Origin: Blautia argi
GTDB taxonomy: Bacteria > Bacillota > Clostridia > Lachnospirales > Lachnospiraceae
DNA: 64,000 nt
Reading direction: 5' to 3'
Assembly (NCBI RefSeq): GCF_003287895.1
Contig: NZ_CP030280.1
Location: 2,979,501-3,043,500, forward strand
Both the position numbers and the translations under genes were made by a program. Shown piece by piece: positions 30,077-50,470 of this stretch. The notes beneath the pieces are model-generated. The model searched no databases and was not told the DNA's origin. It saw only the letters and a list, made by a program, of their open reading frames with translations. Each line of letters starts with the position of its first letter. The stretch's first letter is position 1.

Positions 30077-30108
30077 GCAATATCTCTTAAACATGTATAT
30101 TCAGACTT

Positions 30109-30255
30109 TCAGGACTGTCCCATATGCAGATATTTTTCTCTGGTAGCCAGTCCACCGCGAATATGACGTTCTGACTTGTTTAAATCCAGAATTTTTCTTG
30201 CCTCTGCCGCCAGCGCCGGATTTATCTGAAGGAGGCGTTCTGTACAGTCCTTATG
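30109..30255 (-). pseudogene. spoIIID: 3' half of spoIIID, split by a mobile element
   Basis: This reading frame of 48 codons starts at the element junction and reads HKDCTERLLQINPALAAEA, then KILDLNKSERHIRGG and LATREKYLHMGQS, with TGA at 30109. The pattern HKD.TERL..IN..L......L..NKS.RHIRGG.AT..KY is diagnostic for SpoIIID, the mother-cell sporulation transcription factor. It lacks promoter, start and most of the helix-turn-helix, which lie 20 kb away at 50268-50411. Fusing ...SKSTV from there with HKDCTERL gives a normal 85-residue SpoIIID with no gap. It is neither mutated nor shortened, so excision would restore the gene. Confidence 0.92.
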
Positions 30256-30265
30256 TTTGGTCGTT
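30245..30265. other. left attachment junction (spoIIID 3' / recombinase end)
   Basis: On the minus strand the junction reads ACCAAACATAAGGACTGTAC. The word ACATA is shared with both right-hand junctions (GTACATATAGA). To the right is the recombinase end; to the left, spoIIID codons. The recombinase stop TAA (30251-30253) straddles the site. Confidence 0.75.
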
Positions 30266-31820
30266 ACTATTTAGAGCTGTTTTATTTTCACATTCGTCTT
30301 CCACTAAAATGCTCTCATTTAATCCCAAATCACCTAGTAAACGAAGGTATATATCCACATTTCCATCTTTGTCTACTTCTATTTTCTTAATCAGTCTCTT
30401 TAACTGTACATTGGTCATCTCATGAACATCTGTAATATCCTCAATCTGCTTAAAGGTATCATTTAAGATTTTTTCCATCTGATCTCCTTTTGTCAAATTG
30501 CTAGATACCATTTTCAATTCATTTTCCAGACGAGCCAGTTCTTGACGAGTACCACCCAACTTATCATTCAATTCTTCTCTTGAAATCAAATCATCGGTAT
30601 ACATATCCATATATTTCTGTCGCATTCTCTGTAATCTGGCAATCTGCAAATTCAGTTCCTTCTCATACTCTGCATTTTCATCTTTCGCTTTGTACACTCT
30701 TTGGAATTCTTTCACAACATAGTCAATTACTTTATTTTTTTGCTGAAGAACCCGATTAAAATATTCCTGTAAAACCTGAAATTAATTCTTCTTCATCTAC
30801 AGCTGTTTTATTTGGACAACTATCTGCTCCTTTCCCATTTCTTCCAGAGCAAACCCAACGCACATACGTATTTTTGTAAGTACGAACTGTTCTTCGGAAA
30901 GACCAGCCACATTCTTTACATTTAATCAATGTAGAAAACAGATACTTGTTGCTTTGCCTCTCATGATTCAGATTGAATGCATCGTTTCTTCCACGAAGAA
31001 TTTCCTGTGCTTTTTCAAATACCTCATCTTCAATCATACGAAGCTCCGGACGTTCCACAACAAGCCATTCCGTTTCATCCTTCTCTCTTCTCTGACCAGT
31101 CAGAAAATCACTGATTTCCTGCTTTCCATTGATAATCTTTCCCGTATAAATCTCATTGGTCAAAATCCGGCAGATGGCATTCTGACTCCATTTGCAGTTT
31201 CTCTTTGTCCGATATCCCTTTTCATTCAGCATATTAGAAATCTTGGCAGCACCGTAACCTTCTTCTGTGTACCACTTATAAATTTGCTTTACAACCTTTG
31301 ATTCTTCTTTGTTGATCTCAAGATTGAAATAGTCTCCGATTGTTTTATCGTATCCGTACACAATGTTAGGAACTCGTCCTTTTTCCGCGTTTAGTTTCTT
31401 TCCAAATTTCACTCGCTTAGATGTATTCGCACTTTCTTCCTGAGCTAATGCTCCAAAGATGGTGAGAACAAACTCACTATTTCCCATACTTGTCATATTC
31501 GCTGTAAGGAACTGTGTTTCAATACCTAACGCTTTCAACTTGCGAACATTCTGTAAAAGATCTACGGTATTTCTGGCAAAGCGAGAAATATCCTTTACAA
31601 CAACCATATCAAACATTCCTTTTTCCGCATCGGACATCATGCGAAGAAATTCCTTGCGATTTTTGATTTTCGTTCCGGAAATACCTTCATCTGCATATAA
31701 TTTTACTAAAACATCTCCGGTACGCTGGGTGTATTCGGAGAAAAATTCCTTTTGTGCCTCTAAGCTGTTAATCTGGTCGGCTTTATCTGTGGAAACACGA
31801 CAATATGCTGCTATCTTCAT
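30251..31820 (-). pseudogene. large serine recombinase (site-specific integrase), one-base frameshift
   Basis: This is the likely integrase/excisionase of the element, about 522 residues when corrected. The resolvase domain starts MKIAAYCRVSTDKADQINSL with catalytic Ser10 and SRFARNTVDLL. A recombinase domain follows (VPNIVYGYDKTIGDY, GYRTKRNCKWSQNAICRIL, then NEIYTGKIINGKQ). Next come a zinc ribbon (IKCKECGWSFRRTVRT) and a coiled coil (LNLQIARLQRMRQKYMDMY). The frame breaks at 30779-30781; removing one A there gives ELIQVLQEYFNRVLQQKNKV and restores the protein. Its final codons NSNDQT-stop reach the attachment core, so integration sets its C-terminus. Confidence 0.9.
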
Positions 31821-31963
31821 AGTGTTACCTCTCTGTATTAAATTTATTTTCTGTTACATCTATATTATATATCAAAATAAAGATTCGTAAACAGAAAAAC
31901 AAGATATTACTGATAAATTCAATAATATCTTGTCTAAAGCTTGATGATTTTCCTATAATCCAA

Positions 31964-32188
31964 TCATTTTATGACCATATTATTTTTCAGAAGCTTCCTC
32001 TCAAGTTTTCTACTCAACTTTTCTGCTGCACTTTCTGTAAAACGACTATTTTTCAAAAACTCCATTGTTGCTTTAAAACCATTCTTCATCCTTAATGTTA
32101 TTCTTATTGCAGAAAACAAATTATATGGCAATACGGTATATTTTGCATCATCGCCATGATATAATTTCTTAACACGCCAAACCGTCAT
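31964..32188 (-). CDS. small hypothetical element protein
   Basis: This 74-residue basic protein begins MTVWRVKKLYHGDDAKYTVL and contains RITLRMKNGFKATMEFLKNS and a lysine-rich helical end. It has no recognised domain. It lies 143 bases upstream of the recombinase, in the place where small directionality factors are often found next to serine recombinases. That role is speculation. Confidence 0.5.
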   Translation of the reverse strand: MTVWRVKKLYHGDDAKYTVLPYNLFSAIRITLRMKNGFKATMEFLKNSRFTESAAEKLSRKLERKLLKNNMVIK

Positions 32189-32265
32189 AATCTACTCCTT
32201 CTTATCTATTTTCGTCGATTTGTAATAACACACATCTAAGTCTTGACGAAAACCAATTACATTGT

Positions 32266-32753
32266 TCAATTTTTATTGGCTTTTCTATATGTTTTCCCTT
32301 TCGTTACTCCATTATCTTCAAGTTTTTTATCTGCAACCAATGCTCGAAGTAACATTTTCGTTCTTGTTTCTTTCACTCCCAGCAACTCTGCCAATTCATT
32401 AGCCTTATACCATCTTCCGTTTTCCATAAAGGCTAAAATAGCATCGTACTGTTCTTGCGTTTTTTTCGTCACTTTTTTTCCGTCACTTTTTTTCGTCGCT
32501 TTTTTTCATCACTTTTTTTCGTCGCTTTTTTCGCAAAAGAAAGCGTCAAAATTGTTCTGTCAGGATCAAATCTTTCTTCTATCTCTGGTTCAACAAATCC
32601 CTCATCATTCCATACATTGAAAATATTGGGAACACCACTGCCAGCTCGTTCACCTATATTAATCAAATTAAACATTTTCATAAGCGATTTATTTCGGGGA
32701 TCAGATTCTCCGCCCAAACGCATTTGCTTTTTACCTGTTCGCACATACAGCAA
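32266..32753 (-). pseudogene. C-terminal remnant of an AlbA_2/Schlafen-like ATP-binding regulator
   Basis: Two frames make up one gene end. The first (32469-32753) carries the family signature GGESDPRNKSLMKMFNLINI, GERAGSGVPNIFNVWNDEGF and PEIEERFDPDRTILTLSF. The second (32266-32472, GTG start) is the usual winged-helix tail, KKTQEQYDAILAFMENGRWY then KANELAELLGVKETRTKML. They are separated by an A-rich 13-bp repeat that breaks the frame. The N-terminal AlbA_2 domain is missing upstream, so this is a truncated relic regardless of the frameshift. Confidence 0.75.
32467..32531. repeat. five imperfect 13-bp tandem units in the relic gene
   Basis: On the plus strand the unit is CGTCACTTTTTTT, with variants CCGTCAC, CGTCGC and CATCAC before each T run. 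Units are 13, 14, 13, 13 and 12 bases. As 13 is not a multiple of three, unit gain or loss, or slippage in the T runs, changes the frame between the two parts of the gene. Confidence 0.75.
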
Positions 32754-32810
32754 AATTATGAAAGAGCTATTGTTTTCTTACTATCCATTACTTCTCGTAG
32801 TTACTCTTTA

Positions 32811-34058
32811 TTATTTAAGTAAATAGACAACCAAACCAATAATTACAATATTAAAAATTGTTAAATACGGATATCTTAAAAGGCTAATTGTAATAACCGT
32901 CTTCATTGTTGCCATAAACTCTCGAATATTTCTAACAGTGTCTGTATACCATATAGCCTTTTTTGCACTATTAAACTTCTTTACATTTTTTTCTCCATCT
33001 CTTACAAAATATTTATCTTCTTCCTCGTTGTATTCCCAATCTATCCACTGTGCATGGCTTCTAAAAACGCTTGACCCAATATCAACTTTACAAATTTTGG
33101 AAATTATATAAGCTATAAGGAATATTATATTTCCTAATACGCCGATTAAACTTACATAAAATAAATTTCTATGCTTCACATACAGATTATTAATCCCATA
33201 AATAACTACTTCTTTTAATGTGATTGTTCCAAACGGTATTTTTAGCAGATAATATATCACACATAAAAAAATAATAGTGCCTAGAATAATATTTACCCAA
33301 AAAATTAAAGGATATCTCTCTTTGAATCTGACAAATATTGATTCCCACCAAACTGGAGCATTAGTTGCTGCAATATTTCTATCTAACAGTTTTGCAATAT
33401 AATATATAAACATAAAAATAATATCAAAAACTACTATTCCAGTTATCGAACACATCATAACAGCCTTTACTGTTTCCATTTTCTGCATATTTCCAATGAT
33501 ATTTCCCAAAATTGAGGTTCCGCCAAAAAACACTAACACAATACCCGCAAACACACCCAAGATTGCGATAAAATCTGAATACGAATTATTCATTTTTTTC
33601 TTTGCATCTTCCAATTTTGTAGTTACATCATTTATTTGCTCATTTATTTCAGTAATTCTCAAGCTAAAACTTTCACCATTAATATTTAACTTTTTTTCAA
33701 AGTCATCCACATAGTTTATTCTAGCGACTTCTAAATTAGTATGATCTACTAATTTTTTAATTTTATCACAAAATTCTTCATCATCTTTTTTCTTACAGTA
33801 TTTATATACCTCATTTAGATTTTGACTTACAATTTCTAACTGAATGCCCTCTCTTTTCAATAAACATAATGTAGAAAAAATATCTGAATAATAATGTCTA
33901 AAATCAACTGTATTAGAAGTACCCTTATAAACTTTGCATAATTGTTTATATACTTTTTCAAGTTTTGTTGGATTCTTAAAAACTTCTTGTGATTGGGCCA
34001 TTTCTCGAATCACTTCTTGAAACAGTTTTCTCCTCTGTTGTTCTTCTTTCTCTATCAT
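32811..34058 (-). CDS. coiled-coil membrane protein, candidate toxin partner of PanA-like antitoxin
   Basis: This 415-residue protein has a helical cytosolic N-terminal half (residues 1-165, ending in coiled coil RITEINEQINDVTTKLEDAK). Four or five membrane segments follow: FIAILGVFAGIVLVFFGGTS, AVMMCSITGIVVFDIIFMFI, LIFWVNIILGTIIFLCVIYY, LFYVSLIGVLGNIIFLIAYI and a C-terminal YLTIFNIVIIGLVVYLLK. It has no known catalytic motif. It starts two bases after the Panacea-domain gene, so the two are co-translated. In the PanAT toxin-antitoxin family the antitoxin is paired with very different toxins, some membrane-acting, so a membrane toxin or abortive-infection effector is a reasonable inference. 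Confidence 0.7.
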   Translation of the reverse strand: MIEKEEQQRRKLFQEVIREMAQSQEVFKNPTKLEKVYKQLCKVYKGTSNTVDFRHYYSDIFSTLCLLKREGIQLEIVSQNLNEVYKYCKKKDDEEFCDKIKKLVDHTNLEVARINYVDDFEKKLNINGESFSLRITEINEQINDVTTKLEDAKKKMNNSYSDFIAILGVFAGIVLVFFGGTSILGNIIGNMQKMETVKAVMMCSITGIVVFDIIFMFIYYIAKLLDRNIAATNAPVWWESIFVRFKERYPLIFWVNIILGTIIFLCVIYYLLKIPFGTITLKEVVIYGINNLYVKHRNLFYVSLIGVLGNIIFLIAYIISKICKVDIGSSVFRSHAQWIDWEYNEEEDKYFVRDGEKNVKKFNSAKKAIWYTDTVRNIREFMATMKTVITISLLRYPYLTIFNIVIIGLVVYLLK

Positions 34059-34060
34059 TT

Positions 34061-34489
34061 TTAATATTCCTCAATATATTCAATCGGTATAAGTTGTTTA
34101 TTACCTCTTCCTTGGTTATACACTCTATCCCATGCACCATTTTTTTTATGTGTTTCTTCAACTAATTGCCATGGCTTCATCGCTCTTTTAGCTTCAATTA
34201 TATTATCTATAATTCTTCTATCTTCATTATCTATTTCTACATTATATTCATTGTATATAGGCATTGCACCATATCCACAAAATTCATAATACACTTCTGG
34301 GACAACCGGACCAAATTGCCACGCATAAATCTCATCAGCAAAAATTGCTCTTTTCTCCTTTTTCAAATAATATTCTTGAATATAAAATAATATTTTTTGT
34401 AACTGTAAATTTGAAATATATTCTTCATCTATTGTACACTTATTTATTATGTATTTGCTGAGTTCTTTTGCACTATACATTTTTTGCAT
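34061..34489 (-). CDS. Panacea (SocA/DUF4065) domain antitoxin-like protein
   Basis: This 142-residue cytosolic protein is a compact Panacea domain. It has MYSAKELSKYIINKC, then ISNLQLQKILFYIQEYYLKK (the LQKLLYY-type helix), AIFADEIYAWQFGPVVPEVY (the W.yGPV core) and a C-terminal GAWDRVYNQGRGNKQLIPIE. This domain is the neutralising part of PanAT toxin-antitoxin pairs and is also seen in SocA/GepA. It lies two bases upstream of the 415-residue membrane protein, the usual antitoxin-toxin order. Confidence 0.85.
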   Translation of the reverse strand: MQKMYSAKELSKYIINKCTIDEEYISNLQLQKILFYIQEYYLKKEKRAIFADEIYAWQFGPVVPEVYYEFCGYGAMPIYNEYNVEIDNEDRRIIDNIIEAKRAMKPWQLVEETHKKNGAWDRVYNQGRGNKQLIPIEYIEEY

Positions 34490-34605
34490 ATTCCCCCCAC
34501 ATTCTTTACTTTTTCAATGTATTTTATCGTCATTATACGCTTAATTGTAATCATATTTCAACCATTTTTACTATTCCCTTTGAAACTCTTCAATCAAAAA
34601 ATCTT

Positions 34606-34773
34606 TTATTTTTCCTCCTGCTTGTCCTCTTCCAAACTTCTTCCAGCTACCTCCTGCATAACTCGTTCAACTTTCTTCGCATTCACCTCAATAAATACTT
34701 TTAATATGTAATCGGCGGTCACTTCCGCAGTATTCGGATTATGAAAACGATAATTCAGTTTTTGTTTCTTCAT
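34606..34773 (-). CDS. small hypothetical element protein
   Basis: This 55-residue protein reads MKKQKLNYRFHNPNTAEVTA, then DYILKVFIEVNAKKVERVMQ and an acidic tail. ATG at 34773 with GGGAGGTGGGAG upstream is preferred to the open frame up to 34848. Similar small proteins accompany the primase-relaxase module in Firmicutes mobilisable elements. No function is known. Confidence 0.6.
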   Translation of the reverse strand: MKKQKLNYRFHNPNTAEVTADYILKVFIEVNAKKVERVMQEVAGRSLEEDKQEEK

Positions 34774-34936
34774 AGCGGTGCTCCCACCTCCCTTTTCTCT
34801 TTGTCCATTACTATGAAAATACCTATTAAAATAGACCTTAACTATCATCTATTCGTAATTACTCTGACATTGGCGGCTGGCAAAGGTATCTATAAAGACT
34901 GCCAATGCCAAAGTATTTTTTTGCCAATGCCATCTT

Positions 34937-36844
34937 TTATTCTGTGATTAACGCAACTGTTTTTCTTCCCTGACACCAGTCATAGCTTAATCTACTTTCC
35001 AATTGCTTTCTTGCATCTCTTCCTGTTCTGGAAGAAATCCCATAGGCTAGCAGTTCTGCCTCTAATTCTTCTAAACACATCATTTTCCGTTTGCTCAATA
35101 ATTCTAGGATCAACTTCTGTGCCTTTTCCAGTTTCGTTTCCTTTTTCGTTCCTGCTTTCCCCATCAGCAGATCTTCAATGGATATATCGTATTCTCCTAA
35201 CCATTTTAAGCCTTCTTCTCCTAAAGAAAACGCTACCGGATTTTCCTTCTTAGCAAGAGAATCCTTTTGCTGATATACCACTCGGATATCCTGTTCCTTC
35301 TCTTTTTCCACCTTTTCTACAAATAAGATGCTTCGTACTGCCGCTGCGATATCAATGGATCCCAGGGAACGGTAATCACTCTGACTTCCCGACGACTTAT
35401 TCAAATGTCCAATGAGAACAATGGCACATCCAGTTCTCTCTGCAATCGTACTGAGATGTCGAAATAAGGGACGGATCTCATTTGCCCGGTTCATATCCAC
35501 ATTGGCTCCCAGATAAGCCTGTATGGGATCCATGATCATGAGTCGTACATTATTCTGTCGGATGGCTTTTTCAATCCGATCGTCCGTCATAGAAAGCTGT
35601 TTTTCTTCTTCATTGATGAATCGTACCCTTGTCATATCTGCACTACATTTTGCTAATCTAGGTTTAATGGTATCTGCAATCCCATCCTCTGCTGTTTGAT
35701 ACAACACATTAAAGGGTTCTATGGGAAGTGCATTGGGAAGTTCCTTTCCGTTGGTACAGTATGCGGCGATTGCCATTGCAAGCCATGTTTTTCCTTTTCC
35801 CGGATTCCCTTGGATCAAAGTAACCTTTCCAAAGGGAATGAAGGGATACCATAACCACTGGACCACCGTTTCCTCAACCTCCGACATTTTCATGACCGGA
35901 ACTGGTTTTTCCCTGGCATCTCTCCAACACATCTGCTTTGCCATACTTTCTACTGGAACTTCTGCTACCAGACATTCATTCCAGTCTTTCTTCACCGGTT
36001 CTAATCGGTACACACTCAGTTCCTTCGGAATAAGAGAAACAAACTGCCTGCATCTCTCATTTCCAGGCTCATCATTATCCAGACACAAGTAGATGGAATG
36101 GATATGAGAATATTCTGTATACATCCGTTTCATTGCTTTTTCACTCAATCCGCCCAGAGAAATATAACTATGCTTTCCCCAGTCTTCCGGAACTGCAGTG
36201 ATATAAGACAAAAGATCAATGGGGGATTCAAACACAAACAGTTTTTCATCCGTTCCTATATGGCCAAATCCATAGGCTTTTTCCGAACCTCTTGCCTCCC
36301 CACGATATCGGTTCTCATCGGTTCCCCGCATAGCTGCATATCTAGGATTCTGTTCTTTGTCTCTTCCGACGAATACCACATTGTGATAGTTTTTACTTTC
36401 ATAAATATCCCCCTTTGCAATCATCTGATCTATCAGCCATTCCGATAGTTTCCTCTGCTCAATGAGATACTTCCTTGCAATCTCACAGCTTTCATTTCTT
36501 TCTGGCAATTCCAATCCAGGCAAGGGGATGGGGCAGACCTTCTGTCTGCCTGCATCTTCCTTGGCCGTTCTTCTGTTGGTTTCTCCAACTCCCTCTTCTC
36601 CTAATAATTCTTTGACTGCCTCTGCAAAAGAAAGACCGTAAAATTCTTTCATAAAATCGATGGCATGACCACCTTTATTCTGACTAAAACGATACCATTC
36701 GTTCTTGTTGATTATCACACTGTCATGTCGCAACCATCGGTATTCCTTCCCACATCGTTTGAACTGTTCTCCTCTCCCAGAAAGAAAAACATATAAATCA
36801 GTATCATCTGCTCTTTGAATCTGTTCTCTTGTATATTCTTCCAT
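34937..36844 (-). CDS. primase-like and RepA-type helicase fusion
   Basis: This 635-residue replication protein of the mobilisable element is a fusion. Residues about 1-110 are a CHC2/DUF3991-like primase N-terminus (WLRHDSVIINKNEWYRFSQN, GGHAIDFMKEFYGLSFAEAV). Residues about 160-290 are a TOPRIM domain (LFVFESPIDLLSYITAV with the catalytic Glu; IYLCLDNDEPGNE with the acidic pair). From about 330 comes an AAA_25/RepA-type ATPase (Walker A LIQGNPGKGKTWLAMAIAAY, Walker B VRLMIMDPIQAYLG, AIVLIGHLNKSSG). A winged-helix-like tail follows. It is 15 bases downstream of the relaxase. It probably unwinds and primes the single strand after transfer. Confidence 0.8.
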   Translation of the reverse strand: MEEYTREQIQRADDTDLYVFLSGRGEQFKRCGKEYRWLRHDSVIINKNEWYRFSQNKGGHAIDFMKEFYGLSFAEAVKELLGEEGVGETNRRTAKEDAGRQKVCPIPLPGLELPERNESCEIARKYLIEQRKLSEWLIDQMIAKGDIYESKNYHNVVFVGRDKEQNPRYAAMRGTDENRYRGEARGSEKAYGFGHIGTDEKLFVFESPIDLLSYITAVPEDWGKHSYISLGGLSEKAMKRMYTEYSHIHSIYLCLDNDEPGNERCRQFVSLIPKELSVYRLEPVKKDWNECLVAEVPVESMAKQMCWRDAREKPVPVMKMSEVEETVVQWLWYPFIPFGKVTLIQGNPGKGKTWLAMAIAAYCTNGKELPNALPIEPFNVLYQTAEDGIADTIKPRLAKCSADMTRVRFINEEEKQLSMTDDRIEKAIRQNNVRLMIMDPIQAYLGANVDMNRANEIRPLFRHLSTIAERTGCAIVLIGHLNKSSGSQSDYRSLGSIDIAAAVRSILFVEKVEKEKEQDIRVVYQQKDSLAKKENPVAFSLGEEGLKWLGEYDISIEDLLMGKAGTKKETKLEKAQKLILELLSKRKMMCLEELEAELLAYGISSRTGRDARKQLESRLSYDWCQGRKTVALITE

Positions 36845-36859
36845 CTTCTAAAATTCCTC

Positions 36860-38407: not shown

Positions 38408-38408
38408 C

Positions 38409-38831
38409 TTACTCATCTCCCTGTGGCAGTTCACCTTGTTGCATCGCCTTTAATAATGCTTCCTCTTCTGCTAATTCTCGTTCTTTTGCTTCTGCAGTTT
38501 CCGCCCGTCCACGAACCATTTCATGAACGACATCACAAAACTTACAAGCGGGATTATGAAGAAGTTCATCCATCAACTGATAAAATTCTGCCTCGGTCAG
38601 ATATTTGGTATCTTTACAGATTGCTCCTATGGCTGCTCCCTTCTGGATCAACAGATGGGTTCGTGCCTTTCGCTTTTTCTTTTTCTGTGTGTCTATATAA
38701 TTCAAGGATCTCTGGATCCTGTGCTCTGCCTGTTCCTTCTCAAGCTTTGCCTGTTTCAATGCAGCTTCTGTTTTTTCAATCTCAAGAAGTGCTTCTTGGG
38801 TATATTCCTGAAATGTTTTCTTCTTCGCCAT
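38409..38831 (-). CDS. DUF3847-family mobilisation-accessory protein
   Basis: This protein of about 140 residues is charged and helical: MAKKKTFQEYTQEALLEIEK, then a coiled coil, then RKARTHLLIQKGAAIGAICK and LTEAEFYQLMDELLHNPA. The block after the coiled coil is the DUF3847 signature. Genes of this type lie directly before MobQ relaxases and may act like MobC in loading the relaxase. The start at 38831 has AAGGAG twelve bases upstream; ATG 38864 and the open frame to 38930 are alternatives. The stop overlaps the relaxase ribosome-site region. Confidence 0.75.
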   Translation of the reverse strand: MAKKKTFQEYTQEALLEIEKTEAALKQAKLEKEQAEHRIQRSLNYIDTQKKKKRKARTHLLIQKGAAIGAICKDTKYLTEAEFYQLMDELLHNPACKFCDVVHEMVRGRAETAEAKERELAEEEALLKAMQQGELPQGDE

Positions 38832-38974
38832 ATAGTTCTTTTTCTCCTTTTTCAACTCTTCCATTTTCTCTGTTACGGGATAGGCATTTCTGCCGGAAGG
38901 GGAACCCTTCTTCGGATGGATCATCCGCAAACACTTTCGGAATTCCCCTTCAGAAAGATGCTACTTCCGTAGGA

Positions 38975-39012: not shown

Positions 39013-39033
39013 CTTTCAGCATCCGAGTTTTTC

Positions 39034-39898: not shown

Positions 39899-39923
39899 TG
39901 TTCTTTCATATAATTCCAAAAAA

Positions 39924-41847: not shown

Positions 41848-41879
41848 TATTATATCTCCTTATCCGCGATGCAAATTTT

Positions 41880-42761: not shown

Positions 42762-43993
42762 TATTTAATCGCCTCCAATGCTTTATGTATTTCTTTTGCT
42801 ATATCGTAAGCCAAATTAACCGGAACAGCATTTCCTACTTGTTTATATTGAGAAGAAACATTTCCGCAGAACTCCCAATCATCTGGAAACGATTGACATC
42901 TTGCATTTTCTCTTACAGTAAATGGCCTAGCCTCTAACGGATGACATCGTTCAGTTTGTTTTTGTGATGGTGATGTTAACACAGTAAGAGATGGTTCATC
43001 CAAGCTCATCCTACGCAAAATACCTGTCCTGCCGCCTTCCATATCCCAACAACTTTTCATATATTCTTTTGCAATTACAGGATTAATATCTCGCCAATAG
43101 CCACCAGGTGGTACTAATTCAAATATTTTACGTTTCTTTTCTCCATACTGAACACCTGGACCATCTGGACAATCCAACAAAACATCTCTTAATATTGGTT
43201 TGTAATCACGTGGTTTCGGAAATTGATAATGAACCTTTTCTAACAAATCATTTCTGATTCCAATAGTTATTAAACGTTCTCTTTTCTGTGGATTTCCATA
43301 GTCCCATGCATTCAAAACTTGCTTCTGAATTGAATAACCCGCTTGTTCGAAAATACTAGTAATTGTAGCATAAGTTCTTCCTTTATCATGTGTCAAAAGA
43401 CCACGTACATTTTCAAACAAAAACATTTTGGGCTGTAATTTTTGTAAAAATGTAGCATAGTGATAAAAAAGTGTTCCCCTTGCATCTTCCAAGCCTAACC
43501 TTTTGCCAGCATATGAAAATGCTTGACATGGTGCTCCACCAGAAAGTAAATCTAATTCACCGGCTTTGATTCCAAAATATTCTTCAAGATTAAGACACGA
43601 TATATTTGCAACATCATCATGAATAACACGCCAATTAGGTCTGTTTACTTTAAGGGTTTCAGCAGCGTCTTTATCAAATTCAATCAATCCAATCGTATCG
43701 AAACCAGCTTTTTCAATCCCCAACGCTAATCCACCCGCACCAGCAAAGAGTTCTATAGTTGTAAATCCTGTTCTATTATTATCCATATTCATCGGCTTTT
43801 CAATTTCTATAATATCACCAATATCACAATTTAAAGTAGTGCAAATTTTTTCCATACTTTCAAAAGAAATTGGTTCATTTTTTCCCATTCTTGCTAGTAC
43901 ATTAAAACTTATGCCCGCTGTTTCTTTTAAGTCTGTTTTGTTCATGTTTTTATCAATCAAAAGCTTCCAAAGTTTATTATAACAAATTCCCAC
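42761..43993 (-). CDS. DNA (cytosine-5) methyltransferase with N-terminal HTH
   Basis: This 410-residue protein has two parts. Residues 1-65 are an Xre-type helix-turn-helix (KLLIDKNMNKTDLKETAGIS, MEKICTTLNCDIGDIIEIEK). Residues 75-410 are a C5 methyltransferase with motif I TTIELFAGAGGLALGIEKAG, motif IV GGAPCQAFSYAGKRLG with the catalytic Cys, motif VI MFLFENVRG, motif VIII QKRERLITIGIR and motif X YKQVGNAVPVNLAYDIA. The start is GTG at 43993 with GGAGGAAGAG. It protects host DNA from the endonuclease. The fused HTH probably represses the operon, taking the place of a separate C protein. Confidence 0.92.
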   Translation of the reverse strand: MGICYNKLWKLLIDKNMNKTDLKETAGISFNVLARMGKNEPISFESMEKICTTLNCDIGDIIEIEKPMNMDNNRTGFTTIELFAGAGGLALGIEKAGFDTIGLIEFDKDAAETLKVNRPNWRVIHDDVANISCLNLEEYFGIKAGELDLLSGGAPCQAFSYAGKRLGLEDARGTLFYHYATFLQKLQPKMFLFENVRGLLTHDKGRTYATITSIFEQAGYSIQKQVLNAWDYGNPQKRERLITIGIRNDLLEKVHYQFPKPRDYKPILRDVLLDCPDGPGVQYGEKKRKIFELVPPGGYWRDINPVIAKEYMKSCWDMEGGRTGILRRMSLDEPSLTVLTSPSQKQTERCHPLEARPFTVRENARCQSFPDDWEFCGNVSSQYKQVGNAVPVNLAYDIAKEIHKALEAIK

Positions 43994-44139
43994 AACTCTT
44001 CCTCCATTCGCATCATTGTGTCATATCAGTCTATCATAAAGAGCGTATTATGGCAACTTTTTTTCTCACGATATCATTAGTTCATCTCATTCAACACAGA
44101 TTTTTATACAACCCAATATGCACTAAAAGGAATACAGCA

Positions 44140-44391
44140 TTATAAATCTTTTCTTTGCTCATAACTCGTTCCCTCCGGTGCAAATTTTACTATACTTCTT
44201 ATAGCTTCAAAAGCAAACACACCAACTACTTTCTCACTAAAAAAGACTAGAAGAGACATTTTCTCTTCTAATCCTTTATACTTTATCACAGAATACTTTT
44301 TGCTTTTATTTTTCTCATGGTCACGAGGCTTTTTTCGCTTAAATCGTACCTTTTGAACACGTGTTGTTACATATAAAAGTCTTAACCCCAC
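44140..44391 (-). CDS. possible 83-residue protein at the element's right end
   Basis: A frame with GTG start at 44391 reads MGLRLLYVTTRVQKVRFKRK then basic residues and a hydrophobic segment (MSLLVFFSEKVVGVFAFEAI). There is no good ribosome site and no recognised family. The rest of the 43994-44423 gap holds only the methyltransferase promoter region and the element-end sequence. It may be spurious. Confidence 0.3.
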   Translation of the reverse strand: MGLRLLYVTTRVQKVRFKRKKPRDHEKNKSKKYSVIKYKGLEEKMSLLVFFSEKVVGVFAFEAIRSIVKFAPEGTSYEQRKDL

Positions 44392-44423
44392 TAAACACTC
44401 TTACCTCACCTCATAAACAACCT

Positions 44424-44567
44424 TCACAAAAACTCCTCTTTTGTTACATCTATATGTACTGTACTCTTACTTACCCCAAATCGCTTCGCCGTCTGTCGCA
44501 CCGTCGCCTTTGTCTCTATAATATACTCCGCAATTTCCACTGCTCTTTCTTCGATATAATCTTTCAC
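44424..44567 (-). pseudogene. spoIIID: second, diverged 5' half of spoIIID (copy 1)
   Basis: GTG at 44567 opens a 47-codon frame. It reads MKDYIEERAVEIAEYIIETK, ATVRQTAKRFGVSKSTVH, then IDVTKEEFL and stop. Up to STVH it is the SpoIIID N-terminus with most of the helix-turn-helix; IDVTKEEFL comes from the element. It differs from copy 2 at five of 47 residues, so it is not a recent duplication of the host copy. It has its own sigma-E-type promoter. Removal of the left 14-kb unit would fuse it in frame to HKDCTERL. The start-site SD AGGGGA lies six bases upstream. Confidence 0.88.
44440..44462. other. internal attachment junction (copy 1 / left unit)
   Basis: The minus strand reads AGTACATATAGATGTAACAA. 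ACATA is shared with the left junction at 30245-30265, and the following GTAACAAAAGAG plus GTTTTTGTGAAGGTTG is shared with the junction at 50268-50305. It marks the right end of the 14-kb unit. Confidence 0.7.
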
Positions 44568-44571
44568 AAAA

Positions 44572-44624
44572 ATTCCCCTGGATACATCTTTTTACAATGT
44601 ATGCAGGGGAAATAAAGATTATGT
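44572..44624 (-). promoter_or_regulatory. sigma-E-type promoter and hairpin of spoIIID copy 1
   Basis: The minus strand has ACATAAT (44618-44624), a 14-base spacer and CATACATT (44596-44603). This fits the sporulation sigma-E consensus (-35 containing ATA, -10 CATACA-T). A hairpin TTCCCCTG...CAGGGGAA followed by TTTTT spans the -10 and the SD sequence AGGGGA. The -35 overlaps the stop of the upstream gene. Confidence 0.65.
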
Positions 44625-44977
44625 TAGAACAGTTCAAACAGGGATGGTGCATCAAAAAATATATCATTGGGCAAACACAAACCATATATTTTTGCAAATT
44701 CATTTATAAATTGATTTGACGGTTCTTTATTTTCTTCATAATCTTTTTCAAGAACTCTCTTAATTTCCTCAAATTTTTCATAAGCTTCTTCCTGACTGCA
44801 ATAAATAATTCCATACATGATTCCATAGGAAACATAAATTTCATACTGATTATTATCTGCCGAAAATATACTCACTTCAACAGCTTCATCATAAACTTCA
44901 CATATTTCTAAATATGTATTTGAATAATGTCTTCTTTCTTCCGAAAAAGTATCAGTCACATTTCTCCAAATTCCCAT
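44624..44977 (-). CDS. hypothetical protein, right cargo segment
   Basis: This 117-residue acidic protein starts MGIWRNVTDTFSEERRHYSN and contains an Ig-like beta stretch (AVEVSIFSADNNQYEIYVSY) followed by a helical part (EEAYEKFEEIKRVLEKDYEE). No signal, membrane segment or known motif is seen. Its stop overlaps the -35 of spoIIID copy 1. It resembles small immunity-like proteins in size, but there is no toxin next to it. Confidence 0.55.
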   Translation of the reverse strand: MGIWRNVTDTFSEERRHYSNTYLEICEVYDEAVEVSIFSADNNQYEIYVSYGIMYGIIYCSQEEAYEKFEEIKRVLEKDYEENKEPSNQFINEFAKIYGLCLPNDIFFDAPSLFELF

Positions 44978-45036
44978 ACCATTCTAGCTCCTTCCTATAT
45001 TTTTTCTTCTTGAATTTTTCTCATTAGAAAATCATC

Positions 45037-45543
45037 TTATCTATACCGAAATCCATATTCTTTTTTCAGTCTCTCATATATCTCAAACGCTACCGGACAG
45101 ACTTCCACCGCATTCAGCACACTATACAGACTCTGCAATCTATCCGATTGATCCGTATAAGGATATTTTTTACAACTCTCCGGTCTGCATTCTCCTAATT
45201 TGCAATTACCGTCCTCTTGCAGAAAATCGCACGGCTTATTCTTTGTCTCATATGTATCTTCTACTTCATTTTTAATCAAATACCTCTCAACAAATTGCTC
45301 TTTTGTCAAATCCAAAATTTCCGCATCTCTTTCCAAATCTTCACTTGGAATACTTCCATGATACATTTTACAACAGTTTCTACATCTGCTACAATCATAA
45401 GTTGAAAACAATTCATCGTGAAGTCTTTTAAACTGTTTGTCCAATTCCTTTTCATCCGCATGGCATTTTAAAAATGTACGAAATTCCAAATTCTCATTTT
45501 CTTTTTTCTTTGCTTCAAATCTTACTTTTCTCGGTGCAATCAT
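45037..45543 (-). CDS. YkgJ-family cysteine-cluster protein
   Basis: This 168-residue cytosolic protein has clustered cysteines, CSRCRNCCKMY near the middle, then CDFLQEDGNCKLGECRPESC and a late VCP. This is the zinc or iron-sulfur binding pattern of the YkgJ/UPF0153 family. ATG at 45543 is chosen because it overlaps the preceding stop as TGATG, giving translational coupling. The open frame to 45579 lies inside the upstream gene. Its role is not known; co-translation with the helicase below suggests one system. Confidence 0.78.
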   Translation of the reverse strand: MIAPRKVRFEAKKKENENLEFRTFLKCHADEKELDKQFKRLHDELFSTYDCSRCRNCCKMYHGSIPSEDLERDAEILDLTKEQFVERYLIKNEVEDTYETKNKPCDFLQEDGNCKLGECRPESCKKYPYTDQSDRLQSLYSVLNAVEVCPVAFEIYERLKKEYGFRYR

Positions 45544-48518
45544 CAATTTTCTCCTTCCTTTTTCTCTTCTGTAATACAAAATGCAATCTCCAACAGTTCC
45601 GCCGCCACCTGATGGTTTTTAATACGCATCAAATTATCCCAAGCATCTTCCTTTCCCAGCAGATTCATACCTCCATGCCACACCAGCTCCTCATCTATGA
45701 CTGCAAATCGTTCCTCTACTTCTTCTTTTGTTACAACATTGATAGCCACATTCTGCATCTCCCGGATCAGCTCATAACACATATCTGCATTGCCATATAT
45801 AACTTTCTCTGGAGCCGTTGTAATGACTGTAACACTCACACCATTTTCCTGGCGTTCTTTTACCAATACTAACAACCTATCAATCTTCTCCTGCCGGATA
45901 TTGGGACTGGAAATCACGATTGATTTTTCTGCCTCCACCAAATCCTGCTCAAATTTTTCCGTATAATTGCCAGAATCAAATATCGCATGAACAACCTGTT
46001 TCTCTTGCAAGTCTCCTGTCCAAACAGAAAATCCTGTTTTCTTATAAGTTCGAAGTCTCTTTCCATACATTTTATTAAATTTTCTCATATGCGTATCAAT
46101 ATAATCATACACATAAACCGCTTCTTTTCCCTCGTAATCACGATTCAGTCTTCCTATATACTGTTCCAAACGCCCTTCAAAAGATACCGGTGCCGCAAGC
46201 ATCAGTACATCCAATCTCGGGAAATCAAATCCTTCCCCTATCTTTTGACCAGTCGCAATCAATATAAGATTTTCTGTACGTGGAACCTTTTTTAATCGTA
46301 TCCGTATTTCTGCATTTTCCTTATCCGAATTATCGCCATACAAGAGAAATACATGGTCTGCTTCGTCTTTTAACATATCATACAGGATTTTTGCATGTTC
46401 TTTGTATCGAGTTAATATAACCGGAGTCTGACTCTGTGAAATACTTTGTTTTACATCATTTGCAATCATTTCATTTCTCTCTTTGCTAGTGCTGATTAAA
46501 CTATAGGCTTTATTGATATCATTCCTACTATCCACAGTATCGATCACTCTTGTATATCTTGGAACAAAATAATGTCCTATTCCCTGCTCTTTGGCTCTTT
46601 CCAATGCTGTGAAGCGATGCCTTAATGGTCCCAGCATCATATATATAATTTTATCCAGATGATCACCACGTTTCGGTGTTGCTGATACCCCATAAACATA
46701 TTTGGCATTAATTTTCTGCAACACTTCCATATATGTATGTGATGCTGCATGATGACATTCATCCACAATAATCATTCCATAAGCATGTTTTAAATTTTGA
46801 AACTTTCCTTTGCTGTACATGGAACCAACCATTGCAACATCTACAATACCCGTCAAAGTATTCTTAGTTCCATGCAGAACACCAATTGCACTGTCTCTTT
46901 TTTTCTTTCGTCCCGTCTTCGTTTCATACTCCGGCGGTTCTTCCCTGATATCAAGAAATTTATTCAGTTCATCTACCCATTGACTAAGCAAATCTTTACT
47001 CTGTAATAAAATCAGTGTATTCACCTTTCGTTCCGCAATCAGGTAACTGCACACAACTGTTTTACCAAATGCGGTTGCGGCCTCTAGCACACCATCTGAA
47101 TCCTTTAGCAACTTCTCCGCCGCAAGTTCCTGTTGCAACCGCAAATCACCTTTAAATGAGACTCTAATTGGGAGACCGATTTCCCTTTGATCAGATATCT
47201 CGATTGGAATTTCTGCTTTCGTACATTCCTCAGTAATTCGTTCTCTTAATCCTCGTGGCACTCGGATATAGCCATCAATATCTTTCCCTAAATAAACAGC
47301 ACTAAAATTATAGTAGTTCGAATATCCTAATCTCTTGTTCTTATAATACTCCGGATTATCAAACGCCGCCAGACTACGAATTTGATTTTGTATTCTTGGC
47401 ATAAGATTCAGCGTATCGACATAAACACCATTACTGAGTACCATATGAAGTTTTCCAACCACATCCGTTTTCACAAACTCGCACTTCTTTTTCCATGGCT
47501 TTGGTCTGCTATTTATATCAATACTTGCAATCTTTCCTTTGCTTTCCGCTAATTCTGCCTGCCACTTTGCCATATATTTTTCAATATCCTCTATACTGAG
47601 TTTTTCTGTCCTATTAAGCAAAATGTCCCATTGATCAGGATAAGCATTCCAATTTCCATCTACAAATGCGCTGTTTCCATTTTTAAGCGCCTGTCCCTGC
47701 AATGGCAGTGCAATCAGATTGCCAATACTGCTTGCCACATCCTGAGACGGATACATACGGTCATAGTAATGAAAGGACTTTAAATTGACAGAAGCCGCCC
47801 CTTTATCTAACAGTAAAAATCCAAAGTTTCTGGCAACGGAAGCCGCTATTGCTTTTTGAAAAAATATCCATACATGAGCGCCTCTCCCTGAGCGTGATCG
47901 TTCCACTAACGGTTTAATTCCATTTATCTTACACATCTTTCTAAGAGCATCCACTTCTTTATGCCACTCATTATCCATGTTGGCAAAATCTGTTGTTTCT
48001 GCACCTTTTTCGTGATTATCAAAATCAAACACGAGAAATCTGCATGTTCCATCTGGCAGCAGTGGATATACACCGATTACGTCCGAACCATCTTCCTTAT
48101 ATCCCAGCAAATGCGAAACGATTTTCTTCACGTCCAGTTTTGTCCATTTTTTATTTTCACACTCATCGCAAAATATCTTTTCTCCACGCTGTTTCGGACA
48201 AAGTTTAACATCCCATCTATTATCACATTGTGGAAAATAACCGCCATTTTTGCTGCGCCTGGCATAGACATCCTCTCTTCCCCAAAACATAGAAAAGAAG
48301 CGTATCGCCATCTTCTCCGTAATAAACGTAGGATGGACAATACGCGCTCCCTGATCGAGATCATACTCTTCTGCATTTTCTATTGTCTCTTCAAAAGGAT
48401 TAGTCTCATCATATGGAATATTTTCTTTTTTCAATTTATCTTTTAATAATCTATTTTCATATTCAAGTAACCGAACAATCTTCCTCAAAGTTTCCGTATC
48501 ATATGCTTCTATATTCAT
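45543..48518 (-). CDS. TOTE-type primase-helicase-PLD conflict protein
   Basis: This protein of 991 residues has four parts. A short coiled coil (LRKIVRLLEYENRLLKDKLK) opens it. An archaeo-eukaryotic primase domain of the TOTE class follows (RFLVFDFDNH with the catalytic Asp pair, VERSRSGRGAHVWIFF, then a zinc-binding CPKQRGEKIFCDEC). Next is a DEAD/DEAH helicase (AATAFGKTVVCSYLIAERK, IIVDECHHAASHTYM, QYIGRLNRDYEGK). The C-terminus is a phospholipase D-like nuclease (SSPNIRQEK..., then WHGGMNLLG). ATG at 48518 with AGGTGG upstream is preferred to the TTG at 48542. Such proteins are considered anti-invader systems. Confidence 0.85.
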   Translation of the reverse strand: MNIEAYDTETLRKIVRLLEYENRLLKDKLKKENIPYDETNPFEETIENAEEYDLDQGARIVHPTFITEKMAIRFFSMFWGREDVYARRSKNGGYFPQCDNRWDVKLCPKQRGEKIFCDECENKKWTKLDVKKIVSHLLGYKEDGSDVIGVYPLLPDGTCRFLVFDFDNHEKGAETTDFANMDNEWHKEVDALRKMCKINGIKPLVERSRSGRGAHVWIFFQKAIAASVARNFGFLLLDKGAASVNLKSFHYYDRMYPSQDVASSIGNLIALPLQGQALKNGNSAFVDGNWNAYPDQWDILLNRTEKLSIEDIEKYMAKWQAELAESKGKIASIDINSRPKPWKKKCEFVKTDVVGKLHMVLSNGVYVDTLNLMPRIQNQIRSLAAFDNPEYYKNKRLGYSNYYNFSAVYLGKDIDGYIRVPRGLRERITEECTKAEIPIEISDQREIGLPIRVSFKGDLRLQQELAAEKLLKDSDGVLEAATAFGKTVVCSYLIAERKVNTLILLQSKDLLSQWVDELNKFLDIREEPPEYETKTGRKKKRDSAIGVLHGTKNTLTGIVDVAMVGSMYSKGKFQNLKHAYGMIIVDECHHAASHTYMEVLQKINAKYVYGVSATPKRGDHLDKIIYMMLGPLRHRFTALERAKEQGIGHYFVPRYTRVIDTVDSRNDINKAYSLISTSKERNEMIANDVKQSISQSQTPVILTRYKEHAKILYDMLKDEADHVFLLYGDNSDKENAEIRIRLKKVPRTENLILIATGQKIGEGFDFPRLDVLMLAAPVSFEGRLEQYIGRLNRDYEGKEAVYVYDYIDTHMRKFNKMYGKRLRTYKKTGFSVWTGDLQEKQVVHAIFDSGNYTEKFEQDLVEAEKSIVISSPNIRQEKIDRLLVLVKERQENGVSVTVITTAPEKVIYGNADMCYELIREMQNVAINVVTKEEVEERFAVIDEELVWHGGMNLLGKEDAWDNLMRIKNHQVAAELLEIAFCITEEKKEGEN

Positions 48519-48554
48519 ACCGCCACCTGCAATTCTCAACACACAAGTTCCACT

Positions 48555-48983
48555 TTATATATACGGTTTTATCGTAAACACCGTCTGCTCTCCGACCTTT
48601 TCACTTGCCAATTCAAATAGATTTTCTTTCGTTGCGAACAGATTTTTAGGATTTCTTCCGATAATCAGATACTGATTTTTATCATCTAACGAAATATACT
48701 TCCGTGTATCGTCATTCAACAAAATATCTGCATTATCAATGACAATCAGTTTTCCCTCTGTCTGGCTGAGTATTTCTTTTATATCTTTTTGATAGTCATA
48801 ATTATCCAAACACAAAATCTGAGGATTAATCGCCATACATTCTCTGATAAACGAAAATGTTGCTGTTTTCCCTGTCCCAGAATCCCCCATTAAAATTGTT
48901 ATATTATTGGTAAATGTAAAATCCACCATAAACGAAGTATGCACTGTTGAAAAGTGTTCCATTACAACCGGTTTACTCTTCAT
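48555..48983 (-). CDS. small AAA-type ATPase
   Basis: This 142-residue P-loop protein has Walker A ITILMGDSGTGKTATFSFIR and Walker B EGKLIVIDNADILL. It then has a sensor-like YLIIGRNPKN. It is too small to have a lid domain and probably acts with its neighbours. It overlaps the DUF4869 gene by 11 bases. A comparable AAA-DUF4869 pair is common in Firmicutes accessory regions, but the function is unknown. Confidence 0.7.
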   Translation of the reverse strand: MKSKPVVMEHFSTVHTSFMVDFTFTNNITILMGDSGTGKTATFSFIRECMAINPQILCLDNYDYQKDIKEILSQTEGKLIVIDNADILLNDDTRKYISLDDKNQYLIIGRNPKNLFATKENLFELASEKVGEQTVFTIKPYI

Positions 48984-49416
48984 TTTCCCACCACTCCTTT
49001 AGTTCTTCGTAATCCTCGATCACTTGACATTCTCTACTAGTCTGAGCCTTCACACGTTTCATGTTAAACGGAATCATTGCATATTCACTATATACATATC
49101 CCTCTTCGAAACTATACAATGTTTCCAAAGCATTATTTCCACATTCTTTTAAGCAAAACACCTTGTCCGGAAAATACAATACATTCAATACTGTTTTACA
49201 TCCCGTAGAAAGTTGATCTATATTCAGCGTAATATCTTCAAAACGTGATCGAATTTTATATTTGCTGATAAGTTCCGAAACATCTATCAGTTGAATATAC
49301 TTTGCCGCTTTATCATCTAGTCTCGTTGCCGTATTTTGATTAAAAAAGATATCATTCAATTCTATATATTCTTTATCTTGAGGTATATCTTTCTTGTGCT
49401 TAAAAATCGTTATCAT
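48973..49416 (-). CDS. DUF4869-family protein
   Basis: This 147-residue protein has the DUF4869 pattern: MITIFKHKKDIPQDKEYIEL, NDIFFNQNTATRLDDKAAKY and the conserved core STGCKTVLNVLYFPDKVFCL. No catalytic residues are known. It overlaps its neighbours on both sides (by 4 and 11 bases), so all three genes act as one unit with the AAA ATPase. Confidence 0.72.
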   Translation of the reverse strand: MITIFKHKKDIPQDKEYIELNDIFFNQNTATRLDDKAAKYIQLIDVSELISKYKIRSRFEDITLNIDQLSTGCKTVLNVLYFPDKVFCLKECGNNALETLYSFEEGYVYSEYAMIPFNMKRVKAQTSRECQVIEDYEELKEWWENEE

Positions 49417-50126
49417 GTCACTACCTCCAATCCAACTTTCGAAAACTGTAGTTTCAATGAACTTCCCATATAAATTCGTTTCATTTTATCAAATACAGAT
49501 AATCTGCTATTATCTAACCCACAGATGTCGTCTTCCTGCCGTTCTTTCCATTCACAACATGACTTTATCCAACATTCGCCAATCACACCTTTTGACACTT
49601 CAAATCCAGTATTTCTTGTCAAATCGAATAGTAACTTTGCCGATAATTGCTCAATATTATGTTCTTCAATATTTTTATCATATTCCACAATTTCTCGTAT
49701 TCCTTTATAATCGAAATTATCATCCTGCAAGAATTTTACAAGTTTGTGTCTTGCTGTGATTGTTCCGGCTCTTTTTTCTAAAAACTCATCTTTTGGAGCA
49801 TAAATCCATTCTATCAATTCTTTAAACTCTAAAAGAATATACTCAAAGCAAATAATATCCAACAGAAAAACATTTTTCTTCTCACTCACATATCTCTTCA
49901 AACGCTTCTGTTCCATTACAACCTGAAGATTATCAAAAGAATTATCAAAAACAATAATATATTTATTCTCTATATCCTGCAATGCCTTTACCGATTTCAC
50001 CAATTCACTATTATTCTTTTTACTTTCAACTATTACATCCGGATAGAGTTGTTTCATGAAATTTTCCCAAAATATATAACTTGCTTTTCCTTTCCGATCT
50101 TCTATCCATAAAAAAGTTTTAGCCAT
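49413..50126 (-). CDS. hypothetical protein of the AAA-DUF4869 cassette
   Basis: This 237-residue protein starts MAKTFLWIEDRKGKASYIFW. It has a Rossmann or TOPRIM-like pattern: an acidic pair after the first strand (WIEDRKG), then IENKYIIVFDNSFDN with a second acidic pair, and NVFLLDIICFEYILLEF. It may be a nuclease or receiver-like protein; the alignment is too weak to choose. It is the first gene of the right cargo operon, close to the element boundary, and overlaps DUF4869 by four bases. Confidence 0.6.
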   Translation of the reverse strand: MAKTFLWIEDRKGKASYIFWENFMKQLYPDVIVESKKNNSELVKSVKALQDIENKYIIVFDNSFDNLQVVMEQKRLKRYVSEKKNVFLLDIICFEYILLEFKELIEWIYAPKDEFLEKRAGTITARHKLVKFLQDDNFDYKGIREIVEYDKNIEEHNIEQLSAKLLFDLTRNTGFEVSKGVIGECWIKSCCEWKERQEDDICGLDNSRLSVFDKMKRIYMGSSLKLQFSKVGLEVVT

Positions 50127-50196
50127 GATTCTTCCACCTGCTTTCTATATTCTATTTTAACCGATTTTCATCCATAACACAATAAATTCACCTAAA

Positions 50197-50224
50197 AGAA
50201 AAAGACCGCATTTCTGCGATCTTT
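50197..50224 (-). terminator. terminator inside the right element end
   Basis: Read leftward, AAAGATCGCA pairs with TGCGGTCTTT around GAAA, followed by TTC. It lies downstream of the spoIIID 5' fragment, so it would end the truncated sigma-E transcript. In a circular form it would lie after the recombinase gene. Confidence 0.75.
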
Positions 50225-50267
50225 CCCTACTCTATCCCCTCTCTTTATCTCACCTCATAAACAACCT

Positions 50268-50411
50268 TCACAAAAACATCTCTTTTGTTACGTCTATATG
50301 TACCGTACTCTTACTAACTCCAAATTTCTTCGCTGTCTGTCTTACCGTAGCCTTCTCTTCAATAATATAGTTTGCTATGTCAACTGCCCGTTCCTCAATA
50401 TAATCTTTCAA
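50268..50411 (-). pseudogene. spoIIID: host 5' half of spoIIID (copy 2), split by the element
   Basis: TTG at 50411 opens a 47-codon frame. It reads MKDYIEERAVDIANYIIEEK, ATVRQTAKKFGVSKSTVH, then IDVTKEMFL and stop. The first 38 residues are the SpoIIID N-terminus and helix-turn-helix; the last nine come from the element. It directly follows the chromosomal penicillin-binding protein gene, so it is the resident copy. It joins in frame to the 3' half at 30109-30255, giving SKSTVHKDCTERL. A sigma-E-type promoter is upstream. As it stands the cell would make only a truncated peptide. Confidence 0.92.
50286..50306. other. right attachment junction (spoIIID 5' / element end)
   Basis: The minus strand reads GGTACATATAGACGTAACAA. 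It shares ACATA with the left junction. The host side is to the right (spoIIID codons). About 45 bases beyond the core are nearly identical to those after copy 1. Confidence 0.75.
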
Positions 50412-50416
50412 GGAAA

Positions 50417-50470
50417 AATCCCCCGAAAACATTGTTTTTACAATGTATGCGGGGGATTTAGAGGGTATGA
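50417..50470 (-). promoter_or_regulatory. sigma-E-type promoter overlapping a terminator hairpin
   Basis: The minus strand has TCATACC (50464-50470), 14 bases, then CATACATT (50442-50449), a good sigma-E match. The -10 lies inside the left arm of a hairpin (50417-50458): AATCCCCCG, ACATTGT, TTTT loop, ACAATGT, CGGGGGATT followed by TTT. Read-through RNA from the upstream gene would fold it, end transcription and hide the GGGGGA ribosome site. A sigma-E transcript would start inside the hairpin and leave that site free. Confidence 0.7.

Follow-up and report, generated by a model that had tools for sequence, protein, structure and literature searches.

The split spoIIID gene of Blautia argi

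The sporulation regulator gene spoIIID of Blautia argi is split by inserted DNA. We studied this locus in a stretch of 64,000 nt (the window; assembly GCF_003287895.1, contig NZ_CP030280.1, positions 2,979,501-3,043,500, forward strand), and all positions below are those of the window. Read from right to left on the minus strand, the locus consists of a promoter with a 5' half of spoIIID, a 5.8-kb segment B, a promoter with a second 5' half, then element A (14.2 kb) and finally the 3' half. The main features are as follows.

30109..30255, minus strand: 3' half of spoIIID, beginning with the His codon CAT (30255) and ending with the stop codon (30109) (TIGR02844 match 34-79; translation)
30249..30267, minus strand: attL, composed of the P arm GTAACGACCAA, the core ACATA and host spoIIID
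30251..31820, minus strand: gene of a large serine recombinase (LSR), frameshifted near 30.78 kb into a 354-residue open reading frame (30756-31820) and a 3' remainder in another frame
31845..31891, minus strand: LSR promoter, sigma-A-like; just past the -10 element lies GATGTAACAGAA (31845-31860), a near match to the spoIIID half-site
34606..34773, minus strand: 55-residue small protein of the MKKQKLNYRFHNPN family, a candidate recombination directionality factor (RDF, excision factor)
34799..34834, minus strand: promoter motif of the small protein, sigma-E-type, CTATTT / CATAGTAAT, then GGACAAAG
30256..44453, minus strand: element A, an integrative mobilizable element (IME) of ~14.2 kb
44401..44453, minus strand: right (P') end of element A, GATGTAACAAAAGAG...; the corresponding end in genome G006 shares 99% identity with it across 201 bases
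44454..44624, minus strand: second, inner 5' half of spoIIID, 38 codons (44567-44454) with a promoter to ~44624 (TIGR02844 match 1-42)
44454..50297, minus strand: element or cassette B, ~5.8 kb, including unknowns
50245..50297, minus strand: right (P') end of element B, resembling the P' end of A
50298..50470, minus strand: outer 5' half of spoIIID, 38 codons (50411-50298) with its promoter (TIGR02844; translation)

The initial annotation of this locus had described two undamaged spoIIID halves on the same strand, and the positions, the open frames and the in-frame translation all agree with it. Joining them at the common ACATA yields the expected product of 85 residues (counted by hand). The 20-kb insert between them is recombinase-bearing as had been proposed, but it is not a single element: two tandem elements surround an extra 5' half. 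The promoterless 3' half is host-like, its nearest DNA being the intact genes of the same genus (88%), and the outer 5' half is host-like as well (89-92% to intact spoIIID of the same genus). The inner 5' half is about 78-80% identical to the outer one; its best match among the loci compared (83%) lies outside the genus, and it looks foreign. CATACATTGT is present in both promoters, at 50440-50449 for the outer and 44594-44603 for the inner half.

The genome of Blautia argi is a single contig of 3,297,975 bases (completeness 99.96). A search of the whole genome with the spoIIID profile, TIGR02844, listed six matches at E <= 10. Three of them are strong; each of these is partial and located in the window. 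The three weak ones are stretches inside longer reading frames. An intact spoIIID elsewhere, a possibility raised by the initial annotation, was therefore not found with this profile. Besides spoIIID, the sporulation genes checked were spoIVA, which is intact, and sigK/sigE-like genes. TIGR02846 has nine matches in the genome; the best, in one open frame, reaches 297.0 bits (cut-off 298.65), the second scores 245 bits, and we read these two as unsplit sigK/sigE-like genes.

Recurrence of the split in other genomes

A scan of named genomes gave at least 486 relatives of the LSR, and the best 80 were kept for inspection of their loci. At 74 of these the LSR abuts a spoIIID 3' half at the same codon, so that the same-codon split with an adjoining recombinase, which was looked for in other genomes, is indeed found there. 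The remaining six include three LSRs located between halves (L189, L193, L196), two elsewhere (L126, L156) and one at a contig end (L167). The carriers are, by record titles, Lachnospiraceae and Oscillospiraceae-type genera. Fourteen isolate genomes, selected from among the titles not marked as metagenome-assembled genomes, were searched whole; 13 hold spoIIID pieces only, and one (L156) holds none.

A similar picture was obtained from taxonomic samples, where the split counts exclude genomes without any spoIIID match. In the genus sample (20 genomes), spoIIID scores over the cut-off in 12, only half-length matches are present in six, Blautia argi included, and two have none. In the family sample (396 genomes), 255 have a match, and in 226 it is over the cut-off. 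Among the 29 below the cut-off, 28 have partial matches of about half length, and G053 falls just under it. When 25 of these 28 genomes were searched again, 17 proved to have both parts and eight a single part. Together with Blautia argi, G006 and G016 this makes 20 genomes with both parts, 12 of which have them in order on one contig. Intact spoIIID is missing from 15 of the 19 LSR-bearing genomes of the family. Among the loci fetched, a related LSR (55-99% over the N-terminal part) stands beside the 3' half in 16 genomes besides Blautia argi. The gap between halves is shortest in G062 (about 3.6 kb) and longest in G107 (75 kb, with a second, broken 5' half as well); in Sporofaciens musculi it is about 31 kb. 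In a class-wide survey, 272 of 392 genomes have a spoIIID match, over the cut-off in 211; some of those below it are divergent rather than split.

Among 129 split-class 3' halves, 103 of them distinct, none has a stop codon within its first 41 codons; this class is defined by loci without a detected adjoining 5' half and may include contig ends or intact genes that are divergent.

Other recombinases act on spoIIID close to this position. In G130 (L111) and G079 (L112), three tandem serine recombinases lie beside the 3' half, with the crossover a few bases downstream and another inverted arm. Hence two or more recombinase systems act at almost one and the same site. G016 has an arm like that of G130 and G079, and no recombinase in the stretch inspected.

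Several individual loci deserve mention. L247 (G036) and L248 (G306) have side-by-side spoIIID paralogues, one intact and divergent, the other split by an element whose LSR is ~45% identical. G378 (L110), counted among the genomes with both pieces, carries a fusion of the 3' part with a truncated 5' part, which looks as though the DNA-binding middle had been lost by deletion; another 5' half is on a different contig. G172 was considered as a mixture of integrated and excised states and rejected, its two spoIIID pieces coming from unlike sequences.

Attachment sites and the large serine recombinase

The pentamer ACATA is common to both junctions of the split gene in the window. At class I loci one element arm follows the 5' half and the other precedes the 3' half, and the core ACAT(A) lies across the Val and His codons of spoIIID. 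The LSR gene terminates at the TAA within ACATAA, both in the window and in 61 of the 80 named loci; the stop is thus supplied by spoIIID. The two arms are inverted copies of one another, most clearly in the uninterrupted attP of phage contigs. The attP was uninterrupted in four of the seven viral loci found, three of these four being locally identical. Several arms (e.g. L200 and G041; those of the window lack it) contain GAACGG at a distance from GTAAC that exceeds the one in the spoIIID half-site by 5 bases, and such a spacing difference distinguishes attP from attB half-sites of LSRs.

The recombinase belongs to the large serine recombinases, as the intact relative L058 contains the Resolvase, Recombinase and zinc ribbon domains (PF00239, PF07508, PF13408). 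The initial annotation had placed a large serine recombinase against one junction; the placement stands, but the gene is not intact, its frame being broken near 30.78 kb. All 16 relatives fetched for comparison have open LSR frames of 495-523 residues. Isolates that combine a split spoIIID with an open LSR frame include Blautia glucerasea, Schaedlerella arabinosiphila and Agathobaculum butyriciproducens. A near copy of the spoIIID half-site, with at most four mismatches in 14 positions, is present in the LSR promoter at 58 of 80 loci (among L120-L203), compared with 6 of 76 control stretches, and in 50 of the 58 it sits 40-43 bases ahead of the LSR start. It is a candidate site of autoregulation.

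Related LSRs occur in phage contigs together with genes for DNA polymerase (L202, L203), a head protease (L202), and a helicase or exonuclease (L203). A near-DNA search of phages with 29000-31900 gave no match, and phage and plasmid records contained one 57% and one 32% match to the LSR.

A small protein linked to the recombinase

Clustering of the reading frames at 101 LSR loci identified a small protein as the most widespread family after the LSR itself. This set includes repeats: G006/L120 and G259/L133 are apparently the same contigs, and L200-L202 are locally identical. The small protein lies on the LSR strand in all cases but one, either adjoining the LSR or several kilobases off. A six-frame profile search without a ribosome-site filter found it at 88 of the 101 loci, in 62 of the 63 having 6 kb or more upstream, and in 29 of the 31 elements seen from the 5' half to the LSR. 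Since the profile was built from 74 sequences of these same loci, the search tests presence and is not an independent discovery. Among the 396 family genomes the LSR is found in 19, the small protein in 17 and both in 15 (Fisher p 9.6e-22); the small protein is present without a scored LSR in G347 and G354, and the LSR without the small protein in G062, G172, G244 and G306.

The small protein is unannotated, has 3175 relatives at E <= 0.001, and gave nothing significant in Pfam, PHROG or PDB. Its AlphaFold model is one long helix (pLDDT 76, pTM 0.41). The pattern TATT - 13 to 15 bases - CATA, which we take to be the mother-cell sigma-E promoter form, occurs upstream of it in 35 of 69 distinct regions (shuffle mean 0.88, maximum 5) and before the LSR in 4 of 78 upstream regions. 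These 69 are what remains, once duplicates are removed, of 73 plus-strand copies drawn from the 74 clustered sequences. The motif is often soon followed by GGACAAAG, in the window at 34799-34815 just downstream of the -10 element; this conserved sequence resembles a SpoIIID box of B. subtilis. We consider the small protein a candidate excision (directionality) factor, probably transcribed by sigma-E, and the promoter motif suggests a switch driven by sigma-E only.

Cargo of the elements and spare 5' halves

Element A contains a relaxase and an integrase, as expected for an IME. Pfam searches of ten window proteins revealed no phage structural gene; the PHROG comparison covered, of the window proteins, the small protein only. 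Segment B is of a different kind, and no recombinase was found in it. The annotated cargo genes are listed below.

34937-36844: element A, DUF3991/Toprim/AAA protein
36860-38434: element A, MobA/MobL relaxase (Pfam MobA_MobL, E 1.2e-79)
39034-39438: element A, SSB
41880-42761: element A, Eco47II-like restriction enzyme
42761-43993: element A, C5 methylase
45543-48542: segment B, 999-residue AEP-TOTE primase-helicase-PLD protein
48555-48983: segment B, small P-loop protein

The TOTE-type protein and its P-loop and unknown neighbours are likely a defence or conflict system carried by B.

Segments comparable to B are found elsewhere. Among 18 genomes examined, ten have an intact spoIIID that is preceded, at a distance of 2.4-18.5 kb and on the same strand, by an additional 5' half. 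These ten segments contain no LSR match but one 25-residue fragment (L244), and they look like passengers bearing a spare 5' half; B of the window is of that kind. As a separate observation, L237, L238, L239, L240, L241, L243, L246 and 44454-50297 are all LSR-less segments flanked by repeated 5' halves, which mostly leave spoIIID intact, and such segments are possible passenger cassettes with a replacement 5' half of their own.

We slightly favour the explanation that B and its likes are recombinase-less passengers that brought the promoter and 5' half of a former host's spoIIID, making a working chimera that was later split by element A. It agrees with the foreign look of the inner 5' half between host-like outer 5' and 3' halves, with the P'-type arm that follows the extra 5' half in seven of the ten loci, and with the repeat, which in seven of ten extends roughly 50-150 bases into the promoter before it ends. 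In the other three (L243, L244, L245), however, there is little conservation of the promoter block, and a single crossover between 5' halves could make the same arrangement. Moreover, the paired 5' halves of a single genome are often near-identical (85-100%), unlike the pair in the window (78%). Were A alone excised, a chimeric spoIIID with a foreign 5' half and a host 3' half would result, while excision of A and B together would restore the native gene.

A possible model of regulated excision and its alternatives

We propose, and consider probable, that these elements form a family which targets spoIIID and that the mother cell removes them in the way it removes skin from sigK, so that spoIIID is rebuilt. 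A dedicated LSR would insert elements at the ACAT core inside the Val-His codons, leaving a 5' half with a promoter and a 3' half without one. In the mother cell, sigma-E, which is made earlier than SpoIIID, would turn on the small directionality factor of the element, and this protein would switch a presumably constitutive LSR from integration to excision. Recombination of attL with attR would then rebuild spoIIID in the terminal mother cell, and the forespore chromosome would retain the element. As SpoIIID would be made only after excision, it could not be the activator of excision.

The initial annotation had likewise suggested a skin-like regulated excision of the spoIIID insert. At the level of the family this idea is strongly supported by the recurrence, the LSR, the small protein and the attP; for the present strain it may not hold, the LSR being frameshifted. 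Indeed, we give nearly even chances to the explanation that the family excises under regulation but that in Blautia argi the system is dead, the frameshift locking both elements in a strain that is asporogenous or stalled. The LSR is cut short by a one-base frameshift, at 354 of ~522 residues, and a second close LSR that could replace it was not found in the genome, where the next best has 23-29% identity. Blautia argi may thus be unable to complete excision, barring a sequencing error or the sufficiency of the 354-residue LSR, and may be blocked in sporulation. On the other hand, element A has a second frameshift-like break, also at a short homopolymer, between 39924-41669 and 41602-41847 (near 41.66 kb, in a reading frame of no assigned function), which may point to assembly errors, and the resolvase, recombinase and zinc-ribbon domains would mostly remain, judging by the Pfam positions in the intact relative. 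The breaks in the LSR and in 39924-41847 are either sequencing errors or decay.

Besides the broken LSR and the missing substitute for it, a number of observations weigh against excision during sporulation, and some of them would fit a different explanation, which we regard as unlikely: that spoIIID is merely a common insertion site, inactivated in carriers that are losing sporulation, with exit by ordinary phage or IME induction without a sporulation signal. A spoIIID match is absent from 141 of the 396 family genomes, so that loss of the gene is common in the family. The pN/pS ratio is somewhat higher in split 3' halves (0.244) than in intact genes (0.153), and two reading frames of element A are apparently frameshifted in Blautia argi. 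Within the genus, LSRs are 98-99% identical over the N-terminal part, as compared with only about 82-86% for the spoIIID 3' halves (protein); the insertions are therefore recent and the halves are maybe too young to decay, so that intact halves by themselves are no proof of long service. The exact circle junction (attP) of the window's element has no match in viral contigs. As for the switch, G062 and G244, which are seen whole and have the most divergent LSRs, are without the small protein, and the evidence for its directionality role consists of linkage, size and a promoter motif. The promoter pattern is a weak classifier, matching 11 of 72 upstream regions of intact spoIIID though CATACA is present in 38 of them, and it does not separate sigma-E from sigma-K. 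Against mere insertional inactivation speak the absence of stop codons from the 129 split-class 3' halves described above, the mother-cell-type promoter motif often kept before the small protein, and the intact spoIVA and sigK/sigE-like genes of Blautia argi. Finally, an assembly artefact is very improbable and was rejected. The halves do lie on different contigs in 8 of the 20 family-sample genomes with both, where assemblies are fragmented; however, they are in order on one contig in the other 12, the Blautia argi genome is one contig, and the same att structure recurs in independent assemblies and isolates.

Beyond regulated excision itself, we speculate on a broader scheme of four parts, which taken jointly is doubtful. 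spoIIID could be a major common integration site in gut Clostridia for phages, IMEs and passenger cassettes that use a co-evolved module of LSR and small protein. The circuit could end itself, with sigma-E inducing the small protein, the element leaving, and the SpoIIID so produced turning the small protein off via the GGACAAAG box. The LSR could limit itself through the copy of the spoIIID half-site in its own promoter. Through the spare 5' halves borne by cassettes, genera could exchange the SpoIIID promoter together with the DNA-binding half of the protein.

Comparison with known systems

The SCC cassettes of staphylococci, moved by Ccr recombinases, stand in tandem at one chromosomal site with repeated att ends. 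The spoIIID locus resembles them in its tandem cassettes at one site, and the LSR of the window matches the CcrB model (E 2e-42), but with 146 bits against a cut-off of 900; unlike SCC, the spoIIID site splits a developmental regulator gene.

With skin-like elements the locus shares a sporulation gene cut into two in-frame halves on the same strand, a short core common to both junctions within att arms, and a site-specific recombinase encoded by the element, frameshifted in Blautia argi and open in the 16 relatives. In the C. difficile skin, a constitutive LSR with a sigma-A-type promoter works with a 72-residue RDF controlled by sigma-E and SpoIIID (PMC5025042). The likeness to that element (in sigK, with CD1231 and CD1234) includes the split gene of a mother-cell regulator, the LSR at the junction with its sigma-A-type promoter, and an RDF-sized small gene behind a sigma-E-type promoter (PMC5025042). 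The difference is that the target here is spoIIID, whose product activates CD1234 there, so that this step is unusable here; the spoIIID elements also carry many unrelated cargos.

The gin element (GirC, GirX), which interrupts gerE in Bacillus cereus, is similar in being non-phage, in its restriction-modification genes and in its target, a small mother-cell transcription factor (PMC5595907). It has three serine recombinases, in contrast to one in class I spoIIID elements; the second-class loci of G130 and G079 have three. PMC10747680 lists sigK, spsM, spoVFB, gerE and yabG as intervened sporulation genes. The spoIIID elements are of the same recombinase-carrying kind as yin (yabG), vfbin (spoVFB) and SPbeta (spsM); they differ from these in the target gene, and whereas yin is called unique by its authors, the spoIIID family recurs in many genera. 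The initial annotation knew of no published insertion in spoIIID, and we also found no report of such an element in the open-licence literature; a report elsewhere is possible, and the tables of a large survey of LSRs (PMC10083194) may include spoIIID as a target. Viral 'auxiliary' spoIIID genes, mentioned in a review (PMC12713726), might partly be spoIIID halves at phage att sites.

Implications for sporulation of gut bacteria

As SpoIIID is required for skin excision in C. difficile and B. subtilis (PMC5025042), a split spoIIID places the DNA-rearrangement switch one level higher in the cascade and requires a timer independent of SpoIIID. Some genomes called spoIIID-negative may be split instead. 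If the proposed excision is true, a large unannotated pair of recombinase and directionality factor governs spore formation in many gut commensals, and the sporulation of gut bacteria, hence their person-to-person spread, may depend on resident mobile elements.

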